A stretch of DNA of 64,000 nt from assembly GCF_900343125.1 (NCBI RefSeq), contig NZ_OPYL01000007.1, forward strand, positions 62,001 through 126,000. The letters run 5' to 3'. The DNA is from Dysgonomonas sp. Marseille-P4361. Its GTDB lineage: Bacteria; Bacteroidota; Bacteroidia; Bacteroidales; Dysgonomonadaceae. The notes beneath the pieces were generated by a model. The model saw only the letters and a program-made list of their open reading frames with translations, searched no databases and was not told the origin of the DNA. The position numbers were made by a program, and so were the translations under genes. Each line of letters begins with the position of its first letter. The stretch's first letter is position 1. Shown here in pieces: positions 31,851 to 36,605 of this stretch.

Positions 31851-32630
31851 TTATTTGTCTGCTATATTTCCCCTTACTTTTGTCAAGAAATCCAGCATAG
31901 ACTTGCTATCTTTCTTCTCTATAATTTCTAACAGAGACTTTAATTCCTCTCTGATTCCTTCTACCTGGCTTGGTGTGTAAGGATTAAAGAGTATCTCGGT
32001 AAGTAAATAATCATCTTCCGATAACAATCCTTTCGCTATATCCATATGACGTTTGAATGTAGTTCCCGGAGCTTCCTGATGTTTCATGACGGAAGCAAAA
32101 ACAAGTGTTGATGCAAAAGGAATGGAGAGAGAGTAAGCTATAGTCTCATCATGTTCTTCGAATGTATAGTCAAAAACGTTTAGTTTTAACTTGTTATACA
32201 AATCTTTGAAGAATATTTTACCCCAGTGATTGGATTCAGAAATAATGATTGCATTTTGTGTACTCAAATCATTCAAATTTGCAAATGTAGGACCAAACAT
32301 AGGGTGAGATGAAGCAAACGGACGTCCTACCTTTTGGTAGTATTCTTTCAGTCCTGTTTTAACTGAAGCTATGTCCGAGATAATACATTGATCGTCTAAG
32401 TATGGTAATACCATGTCGAATGCATCGATAGTATACTTCACAGTTGCAGCATTGATTACGATCTCTGGAACGAAATCTTTAATTTCCTCTGGATTACTCA
32501 TGCGTACCACATTGTATACAAAACGTAATCTTTTAGGGTCTATATCAAAGACAGCGACTTCGTGATCGAAACTTAGGACATCAGCGAAGAAGGAGCCCAT
32601 TTTTCCGGCTCCAAGAATTAATATCTTCAT
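31851..32630 (-). CDS. tyrA: Prephenate dehydrogenase
   Basis: This 259-aa enzyme oxidatively decarboxylates prephenate to 4-hydroxyphenylpyruvate, the tyrosine branch. The N-terminal Rossmann motif is GAGKMGSFFADVLS (7-20), and the downstream ASHPMFGPT (His-containing substrate site) matches TyrA. It is the last gene of the aromatic operon, 5 bases after the DAHP synthase-chorismate mutase gene. There is no fused chorismate mutase or ACT domain, so regulation must come from the operon leader or from partner enzymes. Confidence 0.92.
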   Translation of the reverse strand: MKILILGAGKMGSFFADVLSFDHEVAVFDIDPKRLRFVYNVVRMSNPEEIKDFVPEIVINAATVKYTIDAFDMVLPYLDDQCIISDIASVKTGLKEYYQKVGRPFASSHPMFGPTFANLNDLSTQNAIIISESNHWGKIFFKDLYNKLKLNVFDYTFEEHDETIAYSLSIPFASTLVFASVMKHQEAPGTTFKRHMDIAKGLLSEDDYLLTEILFNPYTPSQVEGIREELKSLLEIIEKKDSKSMLDFLTKVRGNIADK

Positions 32631-32635
32631 TGTGA

Positions 32636-33697
32636 TTATTTATTCAAAATAACTACTTGTTGTCTCACCGATTCTTCGTGTATTGCTTCTAGAATGGTAC
32701 GCATAAATTCAGGATCAACATCCAAACCTTTTGCTTGCGGAATGCGTTTGTTCAAGATTTCATCGTAACGGTCAGTTTGAACAACTGTCATATTGTGTTC
32801 TTTCTTGAATGTACCGATTTCACGAGAAACACGCATACGTTTAGCAAGGAGTTCTAATAACTGGTTGTCTAATTCGTCTATTTGTCTGCGAAGGATAGAA
32901 AGATCTTCTGTACTTTGTCCTTCTTCTCTGATTACAAGACTGCTTAATATTTCCTTTAGTCGAGATGGTGTTACCTGTTGTGCAGCATCACTCCATGCTT
33001 CGTCAGGGTTACAGTGCGATTCTATAATCAAACCATCGTAGTTTAAGTCCATCGCTTGTTGCGAAAGGGGCTGAATAAGGTCACGAGTTCCACCGATATG
33101 GCTAGGGTCGCATAAGATAGGAAGATCTGGATAACGACGTTTTAGTTCAATTGGAATATGCCATTGAGGAAGATTACGGTAGATCTTTTTGTCATATGAA
33201 CTAAAGCCGCGATGGATAGCCCCTAATCTTGTTAAACCAACATTGCTTAATCTTTCTAAAGCACCAATCCATAACTCAAGATCTGGATTTACCGGATTTT
33301 TTACTAATACGGGAATATCAACCCCTTGAAGTGCTTCAGCTATTTCTTGTACAGCAAAAGGATTAGCTGTTGTTCTTGCTCCAATCCAAAGTAAGTCTAT
33401 GCCATGTTTAAGTGCTTCGTAAACATGCTTTTGCGTAGCAACTTCGGTAGAGACATACATTCCTGTTTCTTTCTTTACATTTTTCAGCCAGATAAGCCCT
33501 TCGCTTCCTACACCTTCGAACCCACCCGGTTTTGTACGAGGTTTCCAAATGCCTGCACGCATAATTTTAATACCATCAGCAGAAAGTAATTTTGCTGCAT
33601 TCATCACTTGTTCTTCAGTTTCGGCGCTACAAGGGCCTGCTATAACCATCGGACGCTTAGCGTCAACACCTGGTAATAAAATAGAATCTAATTTCAT
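32636..33697 (-). CDS. 3-deoxy-7-phosphoheptulonate synthase fused to type II chorismate mutase
   Basis: This 353-aa bifunctional enzyme starts the shikimate pathway and also converts chorismate to prephenate. The DAHP synthase domain (about 1-250, KDO8P-synthase-like type) has GPCSAE (21-26), KPRTKPGGF and CDPSH (196-200). The AroQ-type chorismate mutase helices follow at about 262-353 (LRRQIDELDNQLLELLAKRM). This order, DAHP synthase first, is typical of Bacteroidetes. It sits in one operon with pheA, an aminotransferase and tyrA, so carbon entry and the Phe/Tyr branches are controlled together. Confidence 0.95.
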   Translation of the reverse strand: MKLDSILLPGVDAKRPMVIAGPCSAETEEQVMNAAKLLSADGIKIMRAGIWKPRTKPGGFEGVGSEGLIWLKNVKKETGMYVSTEVATQKHVYEALKHGIDLLWIGARTTANPFAVQEIAEALQGVDIPVLVKNPVNPDLELWIGALERLSNVGLTRLGAIHRGFSSYDKKIYRNLPQWHIPIELKRRYPDLPILCDPSHIGGTRDLIQPLSQQAMDLNYDGLIIESHCNPDEAWSDAAQQVTPSRLKEILSSLVIREEGQSTEDLSILRRQIDELDNQLLELLAKRMRVSREIGTFKKEHNMTVVQTDRYDEILNKRIPQAKGLDVDPEFMRTILEAIHEESVRQQVVILNK

Positions 33698-33708
33698 CGT
33701 TATATATT

Positions 33709-34377
33709 TTATTGTTTTATTTCTCCGTTTATTTTTAAAAGTCTATCGTGTTCGTCAAATTCGGCTATTAAAGTATTTTCGCCTTTTTGAGCAGATAATT
33801 TATTCTCTTCCTTATTTAATGAGTACCCTTTAGCTATTAAATAGTTTTCTATAGTCCTTTTATGGTTTACTGCAAAAATACCCGTCAACTCAGGGATAAC
33901 ACTTAATATTCTCGCATGTTCGTTGTATTTGATATTTTCTACAGCAGAATCTTTAATTGTAACTAATAGTATACCATTCCCATAATTTCCTGCATAATAG
34001 GCACTAGTGCCAAACTTACCTGATGCAATTAAGCCTAAAGCATGTACATCAGTTGGTTCTATTTTGTATTCAGCCATAGTGAGGAATTCAATGTTGTGCT
34101 CTTCCCCGAATTGTTTCAGAGCATTGACTTCTTCTAGCAGGTTGGCAGGGATATTTGAGACCTCATTTGCCCAACCCCATAGCCATGTTCCCGAATCGAA
34201 GGCATAAGAACCTAAGACCTGCATAGGAAAATGGAGATCTTCACCAAAAGAAAGTGTCTTTTTGTTCATATCTACCATCCAATTCATGTCGCCCACTATT
34301 TCTGCCAGATTATATTGCTTTTCAAAAGCAATGCCTGCATATTTCTCTAATAGTGTGTCGTAATTAATGATCTCCAT
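33709..34377 (-). CDS. Uncharacterised DUF6882-like protein inside the aromatic amino acid operon
   Basis: This 222-aa soluble protein has no signal peptide. The segments GDMNWMVDMNKKTLSFGEDLHFPMQVLGSYA and WLWGWANEVSNIPANLLEEVNALKQFGE fit the DUF6882 family as I remember it. It lies between the aminotransferase and the DAHP synthase-chorismate mutase genes with gaps of only about 10 bases, so it is cotranscribed. It has no motif of an aromatic-pathway enzyme. Its placement may be chance or a lineage-specific link; the function is unknown. Confidence 0.65.
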   Translation of the reverse strand: MEIINYDTLLEKYAGIAFEKQYNLAEIVGDMNWMVDMNKKTLSFGEDLHFPMQVLGSYAFDSGTWLWGWANEVSNIPANLLEEVNALKQFGEEHNIEFLTMAEYKIEPTDVHALGLIASGKFGTSAYYAGNYGNGILLVTIKDSAVENIKYNEHARILSVIPELTGIFAVNHKRTIENYLIAKGYSLNKEENKLSAQKGENTLIAEFDEHDRLLKINGEIKQ

Positions 34378-34387
34378 AATAGACCGA

Positions 34388-35551
34388 TTATATTCTTTTT
34401 ATTCTTTCCAAAGCTTCTTTCAGCATTTCTTCATTGCAACAAAGAGAGAGTCGGATGTATCTGTTTCCTTTATCTCCAAAAATAAATCCAGGAGTGATAA
34501 ATACATTTGCATTGTATAGAACTTTGTCTGCTAGCTCTTCGCTACCAGAGTAATTGGTTGGTATTTTACCCCAGAGAAACATTCCTACTTGATTTTTATC
34601 ATACGTACAGCCTAGTTCCTCCATAATAGCTTCTGCATATTGACGGCGACTAGCGTATAGTTCGATGTTATTTTTTCTATGCCATTCGTCGCTGTTCTTT
34701 AATGCCGCAACAGTAGCTAGCTGCATCGATTTGAATATTCCACTTTCGATGTTGCTTAATACTTTCAATACCCATTGAATAAACTGAGCATTGGAGGAAA
34801 CAAAGCCAACACGCCAGCCCGGCATATTATGAGATTTACTCATCGAATTCAATTCTATGCAAATATCTTTTGCTCCTTCAATTTGTAAGATGCTGAGGGG
34901 TTTCTCATTCAATATTAGGCTATATGGGTTATCGTGAGCAATGACTATTCCATGCTTTTTACCAAAATCAACAAGCTTTTGGAATAAATCTAAACTACCA
35001 TTTGCTCCGGTAGGCATATTGGGATAGTTAACCCACATTAGTTTTACTTTAGATAAATCCATTTTCTCTAAAGCATCAAAGTCTGGTTGCCAATTATTAT
35101 TCTCATCCAGATTGTATGAATGAATATTGGCTCCTATCATTTTACTGACAGATGTATAGGTTGGGTAGCCTGGGTTAGGAACCAATACGCCATCTCCCGG
35201 ATTAAGAAATGCGAGTGATATATGTAAGATTCCTTCTTTTGAACCAATGAGTGGCTGAATTTCTTTGTTCGGATCTAATGTTACATTATACCATCTTTTA
35301 TACCAGTCAGCAAAAGTGTTTCTAAGGTTAGGAATTCCTACATGTGTTTGATATCCATGAGCATTACTTTCTTTTGCCGATTCATTCAACGCTAGAATAG
35401 TTTCTTCAGAAGGAGGTAGATCAGGACTGCCTATTCCTAAGCTAATCACGTTTTTCCCTGTAGCATTCATTTCAGCTACTTCTTTCAATTTTCTAGAGAA
35501 GTAGTACTCTTCTACAGTGTTGAGTCGGTCTGCCGGTATAATTGTTTTCAT
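34388..35551 (-). CDS. PLP-dependent aminotransferase of the Phe/Tyr operon
   Basis: This 387-aa fold-type I aminotransferase has NYPNMPTGA (Asn175 region), DNPY (207-210) and the PLP lysine Lys239 in SMSKSHNMPGWRVGF. It is class I/II, with similarity to LL-DAP and aromatic aminotransferases. Its place between pheA and the chorismate mutase fusion points to transamination of phenylpyruvate and 4-hydroxyphenylpyruvate, the last step of Phe and Tyr synthesis; that role is inferred from context. Confidence 0.88.
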   Translation of the reverse strand: MKTIIPADRLNTVEEYYFSRKLKEVAEMNATGKNVISLGIGSPDLPPSEETILALNESAKESNAHGYQTHVGIPNLRNTFADWYKRWYNVTLDPNKEIQPLIGSKEGILHISLAFLNPGDGVLVPNPGYPTYTSVSKMIGANIHSYNLDENNNWQPDFDALEKMDLSKVKLMWVNYPNMPTGANGSLDLFQKLVDFGKKHGIVIAHDNPYSLILNEKPLSILQIEGAKDICIELNSMSKSHNMPGWRVGFVSSNAQFIQWVLKVLSNIESGIFKSMQLATVAALKNSDEWHRKNNIELYASRRQYAEAIMEELGCTYDKNQVGMFLWGKIPTNYSGSEELADKVLYNANVFITPGFIFGDKGNRYIRLSLCCNEEMLKEALERIKRI

Positions 35552-35570: not shown

Positions 35571-36413
35571 TTAAATTTCGCTTTGTCTTCCCTCTGGATA
35601 TTCCCCTAATACTTTTAGCTCGCTAATCAAAGGACGTATTGCATCTAAAGATTGTCTATATCGTTCTACATTCGTAAATTTTAGATCTACATAAAACTGA
35701 TATTCCCATTCACGTCCAATAATAGGTAGCGATTGTATTTTCGTTAAGTTTATGCTGTAAAACGAGAATACAGATAATACATGAGAAAGACTTCCTTCGC
35801 TATGAGGTACAGTAAATACAATGGATGATTTATTGATTACGTCGTTTTTTTGAATTTCGTCAACAATCCATTGGTTTCCAAAAATAAGAAAGCGAGTAAA
35901 ATTGTGCTTATTTGTCTCAATCCCTCTCGCTAATATATTCAGCCCGTATATTTCAGCAGCTCTAACACTACATATAGCAGCCGTTGATTCTAAACATTTT
36001 TCAGCAATATCTCTTGCCGCAAGCGCTGTATCTTCATGCTCAATAACACGTACTCCGGGTAGTGTATCAAGAAAGTCTCCACATTGCATTAATGCAATCG
36101 GGTGCGACTCAATATCCTTGATATCGTGGATAGTTTTTCCGGGAAGTGCAGCTAGGCAATGTGAAATTCGTTGCTTGTATTCACCAGCTATAGGCAATTT
36201 ACTTTCTTTCAGTAGATTGTAGTTCGCTAATAAACTGCCTGCAATAGTGTTTTCTATAGCCATGATACCAATCGTATTTGGCTCTTTCTTTATTGTAGTG
36301 AAAATATCTCTGAAAGTAGTGCATGGCACAATTTCGACTTCTTCCCCGAAGAAATTTTCTGCTGCAATTCCATGATATGCACCTAATCCACCTTGTATAG
36401 CTACTTTTTTCAT
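35571..36413 (-). CDS. pheA: Prephenate dehydratase with ACT domain
   Basis: This 280-aa enzyme converts prephenate to phenylpyruvate. The catalytic domain (1-180) has IENTIAGS and the diagnostic NFTRF (171-175). An ACT domain (about 196-275) follows, where the usual Phe-binding pair GAL...ESRP reads GSL (207-209) and QSLP (227-230). That divergence may change feedback inhibition. It is the first enzyme gene of the operon and is preceded by a leader-peptide attenuator. The ATG at 36413 lies 17 bases after the terminator T-tract. Confidence 0.94.
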   Translation of the reverse strand: MKKVAIQGGLGAYHGIAAENFFGEEVEIVPCTTFRDIFTTIKKEPNTIGIMAIENTIAGSLLANYNLLKESKLPIAGEYKQRISHCLAALPGKTIHDIKDIESHPIALMQCGDFLDTLPGVRVIEHEDTALAARDIAEKCLESTAAICSVRAAEIYGLNILARGIETNKHNFTRFLIFGNQWIVDEIQKNDVINKSSIVFTVPHSEGSLSHVLSVFSFYSINLTKIQSLPIIGREWEYQFYVDLKFTNVERYRQSLDAIRPLISELKVLGEYPEGRQSEI

Positions 36414-36429
36414 ATATACGTGTTATGTC

Positions 36430-36460
36430 AAAAAAAAATCCCGTCATTTCTGACAGGATT
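36430..36460 (-). terminator. Attenuator terminator of the Phe/Tyr operon
   Basis: On the minus strand AATCCTGTCA (36460-36451) pairs with TGACGGGATT (36446-36437) around a GAAA loop; there is one G-U pair. A run of T follows (36436-36430). It lies upstream of the pheA start and downstream of a leader peptide, so it is an attenuator and not the end of a gene. Confidence 0.9.
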
Positions 36461-36515
36461 CTATATATTTTTTCGTTTAATTATCTACTCAACTATTTAC
36501 ATACAAAATCCTGTC
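36452..36515 (-). promoter_or_regulatory. Antiterminator pairing of the Phe/Tyr operon leader
   Basis: Minus-strand bases 36515-36499 (GACAGGATTTTGTATGT) can pair with 36468-36452 (ATATATAGAATCCTGTC): 17 pairs, of which 14 are Watson-Crick and 3 are G-U. The second arm contains the whole 5' arm of the terminator except its last base, so the two structures exclude each other. The first arm lies in the 3' end of the leader ORF, where a ribosome reaching the stop codon would cover it. Confidence 0.85.
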
Positions 36516-36571
36516 TTACCTTTAAAGTAAAAATAAAAATAGAAAAAGTATGTAAAAGAGAAATTCTTCAT
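36497..36571 (-). CDS. Phe/Tyr-rich leader peptide (attenuation control of the aromatic operon)
   Basis: A 24-codon ORF starts at ATG 36571 and stops at TAA 36499-36497. Residues 4-16 contain seven Phe and four Tyr with only one Ser and one Thr between them; the peptide ends KGKTGFCM. An exact -7 box lies 27 bases upstream of the ATG. In the pheL/hisL type of attenuation, low charged tRNA-Phe or tRNA-Tyr would stall the ribosome in this run, leave the antiterminator arm free and let transcription reach pheA. When the ribosome runs to the stop codon it masks that arm and the terminator forms. The peptide has no other expected function. Confidence 0.9.
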   Translation of the reverse strand: MKNFSFTYFFYFYFYFKGKTGFCM

Positions 36572-36597
36572 CTTGTGTTCTTAAAATCTTATGGATA

Positions 36598-36605
36598 CAA
36601 AAGTA
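36598..36605 (-). promoter_or_regulatory. -7 element of the Phe/Tyr operon
   Basis: The minus strand reads TACTTTTG (exact TAnnTTTG), with CTTG 18 nt upstream as the -33 candidate. Transcription would begin near 36594, about 23 nt before the leader peptide. Confidence 0.65.

Follow-up and report, generated by a model that had tools for sequence, protein, structure and literature searches.

A probable Phe/Tyr leader-peptide attenuator ahead of pheA supported by comparative sequence analysis across the class Bacteroidia

The region upstream of pheA in Dysgonomonas sp. Marseille-P4361 (contig NZ_OPYL01000007.1) has the layout of a ribosome-mediated transcription attenuator that would sense Phe-tRNA and Tyr-tRNA jointly and control a single operon, a reading to which we give a probability of about 0.93. 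The best explanation of what it controls is an operon that unites both terminal branches of aromatic amino-acid synthesis with the pathway's entry enzyme. The mechanism is of a known kind, classical leader-peptide attenuation, and some features of the element described here may make it a variant. What we add is the anatomy of the element, its class-wide spread, joint sensing, a spacing ruler, a weak protector stem and tandem units. "The window" means the whole 64,000-nt stretch of DNA that was analysed; the element and its operon lie on its minus strand, and all positions are those of the window.

The operon consists of five minus-strand genes separated by 5 to 19 nt. Its first gene is pheA (prephenate dehydratase, 35571..36413; Pfam PDT, 3.6e-53), followed by a class I/II aminotransferase (34388..35551; Pfam Aminotran_1_2, 1.4e-61), a DUF6882 protein (33709..34377), a DAHP synthase fused to chorismate mutase (32636..33697; Pfam DAHP_synth_1 and CM_2) and tyrA (prephenate dehydrogenase, 31851..32630; Pfam PDH_N, 2.3e-08). 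The DUF6882 gene is an insert between the aminotransferase and DAHP synthase genes. A tblastn search over the loci of our order set (see below) found it in an aromatic operon in this genome and in one other of the same genus (G019) only, in a comparison where the 30 best-matching loci covered at most 1.5 kb beyond pheA.

Read along the minus strand, the parts come in the order promoter box, leader, strand 2, strand 3, terminator and then pheA. The box, TACTTTTG (36598..36605), was read from the sequence and fits the Bacteroidetes -7 box TAnnTTTG, a promoter consensus quoted in PMC9723704. A sigma-70 scan returned no promoter at 36605-36598, where the box has the Bacteroidetes form. Transcription is expected to start a few bases past TACTTTTG, near 36591. 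The leader ORF (36497..36571; ATG at 36571, stop at 36499-36497) has 24 codons for the peptide MKNFSFTYFFYFYFYFKGKTGFCM, and its control codons 4-16 (36524..36562) comprise 7 Phe, 4 Tyr, 1 Ser and 1 Thr. A short ORF rich in codons for the products of the pathway is hence found between the promoter and the first gene. An earlier sequence-only reading of this DNA had claimed both a promoter ahead of the leader and a leader of 24 codons whose residues 4-16 include 7 Phe and 4 Tyr; the former is borne out by the box at 36605-36598, and the coordinates and counts of the latter hold on the minus strand.

Downstream of the control codons are two helices that are mutually exclusive because both use strand 3. 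Strand 2 (36499..36515), the 5' arm of the antiterminator, starts 8 nt past the last aromatic codon of the core. Strand 3 (36452..36468) is the 3' arm, and its own 3' part (36462-36452) doubles as the 5' arm of an intrinsic terminator, 3:4 (36430..36462), which lies between the leader and pheA. The terminator hairpin (36462-36435) has 12 pairs and a loop of 4, with a run of 9 T at 36438-36430. In the antiterminator, 36515-36499 pairs with 36468-36452 at 17 of 17 positions (some G-U), and this 2:3 helix scores 33.5 versus 12.8 with strand 2 shuffled, a value equalled by 0 of 100 shuffles. The sequence-only reading had proposed just this pair of structures, a 17-pair antiterminator and a terminator exclusive with it, and both stand. 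It had also seen "no obvious 1:2 stem", which needs correcting: strand 1 (UUUACAUAC, 36548..36556) pairs, though weakly, with GUAUGUAAA (36496..36504), which takes in the distal half of strand 2 and overlaps the leader stop codon, and this 1:2 stem appears as nine AU-rich pairs in the minimum-energy fold. The leader region as a whole folds at -34.8 kcal/mol (z -3.78) and beats 200 of 200 dinucleotide shuffles.

The switch that we propose would work as follows. When charged Phe and Tyr tRNAs are plentiful, the leading ribosome would translate the leader, exit the 13-codon aromatic block and at once cover strand 2. Strand 3 would then be left to pair with strand 4, and transcription would end near 36430. 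When Phe or Tyr is scarce, the ribosome would instead stall in the block and leave strand 2 exposed, so that 2:3 would form and polymerase would read through into pheA. Read-through is thus predicted to rise on Phe or Tyr limitation.

The leader is not peculiar to this genome. We sampled 295 genomes of the order, of which 126 have pheA at E 1e-30; 122 of these loci have at least 150 nt upstream, and the other 4 were dropped for having less. In 111 of the 122, pheA is preceded by an ORF in which 12 codons include at least 6 F/Y, as against 18/122 on the opposite strand and 4/122 in mononucleotide-shuffled sequence; here and below, counts over related genomes are not independent. The complete element, i.e. 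with a terminator at most 100 nt from the aromatic core, is present in 108/122 genomes. From 137 leader ORFs (131 with a terminator within the searched stretch), this distance limit leaves 128 elements. In these, the control block is kept at the amino-acid level with synonymous codons mixed (TTT 524, TTC 179, TAT 258, TAC 202). The promoter box recurs as well: within the 85 nt examined before the core, TAnnTTTG is found for 83 of 108 single or distal leaders, versus 8.7 expected from shuffles. Among 80 named loci (Dysgonomonas, Proteiniphilum, Petrimonas, Paludibacter, Parabacteroides, Tannerella, Bacteroides fragilis and others), 78 have enough upstream sequence, 71 have the leader ORF and 67 have the leader ORF plus terminator; Dysgonomonas hofstadii and Dysgonomonas sp. 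ZJ279 are among the closest named relatives (PheA identity 84 and 85%).

The leader is also linked to the operon. It precedes 101 of 102 pheA genes that are followed by an aminotransferase or DAHP synthase gene and 7 of 13 solitary ones (Fisher p 4e-6, relatedness ignored), while 7 further loci end too soon to be classed; the leaders of G047 and G284 were scored by eye for the operon-head count. The 7 solitary pheA genes that also carry the leader are a point against the attenuator model. The only operon-heading pheA of the order set that has no leader (locus L015 of G091) belongs to a 1.2 Mb genome and has a very AT-rich, seemingly eroded region upstream of it.

Phe and Tyr codons are T-rich, so the F/Y ORF could be a by-product of a T-rich stretch next to an ordinary terminator or the end of a small RNA. 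Six consecutive F/Y codons do occur at 56 places in the Dysgonomonas genome, compared with 67 for the reversed pattern. However, inspection of all 56 places (49 loci) found that only the pheA leader combines an ORF of at most 70 codons with a strong terminator; one other short F/Y ORF (L307) has a weak hairpin (-8.1). A by-product would also have to account for class-wide occurrence, covariation and fixed spacing, and we find this explanation hardly credible.

Covariation was assessed in an alignment (A1) of 31 of the 47 near-family elements, the other 16 having a core that is laid out differently; the 500 shuffles used for comparison ignore relatedness among rows. The terminator helix is paired in 98.6% of cells and has changes on both sides at 6/9 pairs (0/500 shuffles). 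The 2:3 helix is paired in 80.6% of cells, with double changes at 9/17 pairs (10/500 shuffles) and 45 double-changed cells versus 18.3 in shuffles (0/500). Its outer, distal pairs are badly kept, one of them being paired in only 10/31 rows. Controls in which one arm was slid score well below the real arms for both 2:3 and 3:4. The sequence-only reading had suggested aligning this region in relatives as a check, and the alignment finds the leader codons and the paired arms conserved and covarying, which points to an antiterminator helix that would exclude the terminator.

The arms can also be compared across elements that do not align. For all 128 elements (49 families), we asked how well an element's own strands fit its strand 3 relative to foreign windows taken from other families. 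The own strand 2 fits better than 95% of foreign ones in 64/128 elements, where chance gives 6.4, and the own strand 4 does so in 106/128. In the window's own element, strand 2 has no foreign equal, and strand 4 is equalled by 7% of foreign ones. In 6 of the 20 proximal units of tandem pairs (see below), the own strand 2 barely beats foreign ones (0.35-0.90 of foreign windows do as well). When shuffles are used instead, at most 5/100 equal the 2:3 helix in 105/128 elements, and 23/128 fail this test.

The position of strand 2 is fixed relative to the aromatic codons. In the 105 elements whose 2:3 helix is supported, it begins a median of 11 nt past the last aromatic codon (IQR 9-13, SD 2.8; per-family SD 2.0 over 47 families), a distance that would serve as a ruler fitted to the front edge of the ribosome. 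This distance is 6-16 nt in 123/128 elements versus 324/1280 (25%) for shuffled segments, whose starts scatter with an SD of 14.5. The end of the stop codon, by comparison, falls anywhere from 6 to 54 nt past the last aromatic codon, and the position of strand 2 relative to the stop varies with an SD of 12.0. We therefore rejected the stop codon as the setter of the geometry, and the earlier proposal of a ribosome at the stop codon as the switch point gives way to one in which exit from the aromatic codons sets it.

A mask model leads to the same place. In this model, a ribosome is placed at successive codons and the 2:3 pairs that can form before strand 4 is made are counted; the size of the mask is an assumption based on what is generally known about ribosome footprints. 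If the mask extends 10 nt beyond the A-site codon, 127/128 elements keep at least 4 expected 2:3 pairs with the ribosome at mid-core, and 122/128 do so with it at the last aromatic codon. The number falls to 56/128 two codons past the last aromatic codon and 17/128 four codons past it, and the figure at the stop codon is 21/128. Across four footprint sizes, these pairs persist in 126-127/128 elements when the ribosome is two codons short of the last aromatic codon and in 14-27/128 when it is at the stop, and changing the reach of the mask from 8 to 14 nt moves the transition by about one codon. The transition lies past the last aromatic codon, which places the modelled switch where the ribosome leaves the aromatic block: a ribosome on the control codons would free strand 2, and one at the end of the leader would cover it.

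Textbook attenuators have a protector stem, 1:2, and those of E. coli trp and his use it for superattenuation. A classical four-strand version of the present element would likewise have 1:2 force termination when there is no ribosome, with a ribosome opening 1:2. The nine-pair stem of the minimum-energy fold fits this version, as does modest 1:2 covariation in the 31 near relatives: 72.6% of cells are paired, 4/8 pairs are double-changed (77/500 shuffles) and there are 11 double-changed cells versus 5.1 in shuffles (3/500). It also fits that a mid-core ribosome, compared with none, raises 2:3 by more than one pair in 53/128 elements and lowers it in 2/128. However, the 1:2 helix alone passes the shuffle test in just 25/128 elements with strand 2 shuffled and 21/128 with strand 1 shuffled (6.4 expected), and the window's own fails it, being equalled by 66 and 41 of 100 shuffles, respectively. 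Controls slid by two columns score nearly as well as the real 1:2 arms. Furthermore, when transcripts ending before strand 4 are modelled with no ribosome, 2:3 still forms in 99/128 elements, the window's included (15.9 versus 16.0 2:3 pairs before strand 4). We consider the four-strand version unlikely, and the strong claim that 1:2 is an essential protector was rejected, its support in the shuffle and covariation tests being weak.

Since 2:3 forms without a ribosome in most elements, thermodynamics alone does not predict that an untranslated leader terminates. With so weak a protector stem, the model predicts read-through of such a leader, although the opposite could result if the local 1:2 stem folds during transcription. 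Timing matters for the switch itself too. At full-length equilibrium, the median number of expected 3:4 pairs is 10.67 with no ribosome, 10.18 with one at mid-core and 10.65 with one at the stop, i.e. it is indifferent to ribosome position, so the switch would need 2:3 to form kinetically, during transcription. Without a ribosome, both the median element and the window's own form 3:4 at full length; in the latter, a mid-core mask abolishes it (0.0 versus 10.8 pairs).

The codons of the core suggest which amino acids are sensed. Phe codons number 703 and Tyr codons 460 over the 128 cores, with both codons of each amino acid in use; 121/128 elements have at least two Tyr codons in the core and 4 have none. 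The earlier claim that one peptide serves for both Phe and Tyr thus appears to hold generally. Trp is enriched as well, making up 13/218 of the interior non-F/Y residues versus 34/2101 outside the core (odds ratio 3.9, p 2e-4, relatedness ignored). A larger count of 31 Trp in the 128 cores was discarded as inflated, as the core definition could extend over Trp, in favour of the stricter 13/218. Some lineages may therefore sense all three aromatics, which would fit an operon that holds DAHP synthase, the common first step of the pathway.

Other systems have three-strand switches that work without a peptide, and translation of the leader is here read from the sequence, so one could imagine a real RNA switch that is read by a protein or metabolite, with the ORF incidental. 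However, the sampled families preserve both the reading frame and the aromatic nature of the residues even as codon third positions vary and F and Y change places, the spacing of strand 2 is counted from codons, and the enriched Trp codons are in frame. We regard a protein- or metabolite-read switch as very improbable. At gathering score, no Rfam family (no T-box, no riboswitch) matches anywhere in the 64-kb window.

A phylum-wide search gave a match in 215/247 genomes, and we examined 67 loci outside the order, a higher-scoring and non-random selection. The leader plus terminator is present at 44/46 of those in the same class and 4/21 of those outside it. Sequence comparison therefore supports conservation of a Phe/Tyr leader-peptide attenuator ahead of pheA across the class Bacteroidia. 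The four carriers outside the class (L209, L309, L310 and L311) have the most Bacteroidia-like PheA, at no less than 274 bits; the leader is absent from the other 17 loci examined outside the class, which score at most 243 bits. Because these four have PheA of the Bacteroidia type, the leader and operon appear to travel or descend together, and transfer of the operon plus attenuator is possible in these cases.

Two complete Phe/Tyr elements stand in series ahead of pheA in 20/108 genomes of the order (loci L012, L014, L016, L021, L025 and L112 among others). More tandems were seen by eye (G068, G024 and G259), and there are others elsewhere in the class (L210, L338 and L339). Mean Phe and Tyr counts are 5.5 and 3.8 in distal units and 5.8 and 3.5 in proximal units, so both would read Phe and Tyr. 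The TAnnTTTG box that precedes most single or distal leaders is found in the 85 nt before the core of 0/20 proximal units. The two units are therefore probably on one transcript, and polymerase would have to pass both. More broadly, the class Bacteroidia may possess a three-strand ruler switch as old as the class itself, reading the aromatics jointly, lacking an effective protector and forming same-signal tandems in several lineages. We offer this tentatively, with the odds somewhat against it. If true, untranslated transcripts would be read through by default for want of an effective protector, and two copies reading the same signal on one transcript would sharpen the response.

In enterobacteria, pheL-pheA has a leader peptide and alternative antiterminator and terminator structures ahead of pheA. 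The corresponding Rfam model, Phe_leader (RF01859), aligns over its full length to 36565-36431, but membership of that family was rejected: the match scores 19.8 bits (E 0.5) against a gathering score of 55. The Dysgonomonas leader differs from pheL-pheA in that it would read Tyr too (and Trp in some relatives), its protector is weak, and its operon adds DAHP synthase and tyrA. Sensing of several amino acids of a shared pathway by one leader is known from thrL and the ilv leader, which are alike in this respect but differ in amino acids and phylum. A prior prediction may be that of Lopatovskaya et al. (2010).

Serial attenuators are described for the Salmonella mgtCBR leader (PMC3641672), where two ORFs with serial attenuators on one transcript respond to different signals; here, by contrast, both units (in 20/108 genomes) would read Phe and Tyr. 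The same gene in the same phylum is treated in the 2021 transcriptome of Flavobacterium psychrophilum (PMC9723704), which reports clues to leader-peptide attenuation ahead of amino-acid operons and lists pheA and hisG as having structured 5' elements that match nothing in Rfam, that of pheA being shared in Flavobacteriaceae. Its main-text section on these elements gives no leader sequence, model or spread beyond Flavobacteriaceae. Naville and Gautheret (PMC2965389) is earlier than PMC9723704 and is cited on prior knowledge. A Bacteroides thetaiotaomicron map (PMC7366714) describes sORFs reminiscent of leader peptides, with no pheA, prephenate or phenylalanine in its main text. Among the matches listed from a mostly open literature, judged by title and abstract opening, we recognised no Bacteroidales pheA leader or tandem same-signal aromatic attenuators beyond PMC9723704, and no account of the class-wide spread, joint sensing, ruler or weak protector.

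The sequence-only reading called transcription-translation coupling little studied in Bacteroidetes; among the titles listed by searches on coupling, no paper is dedicated to it. Leader-peptide attenuation requires the leading ribosome to be close behind RNA polymerase. A class-wide attenuator would therefore be comparative evidence for coupling at leaders in the whole of Bacteroidia, including the Bacteroides and Parabacteroides of the gut. It could also provide a native reporter of aromatic amino-acid status in gut bacteria.

The same genome likely has a second leader-peptide attenuator. Outside the window, at C8:227783-227797 on the minus strand (loci L285 and L308), a candidate histidine leader, MNNKMHHHHHFLLSTGK, is followed by a strong terminator (-19.3 kcal/mol) and then hisG, with hisD, hisC and hisB further on.
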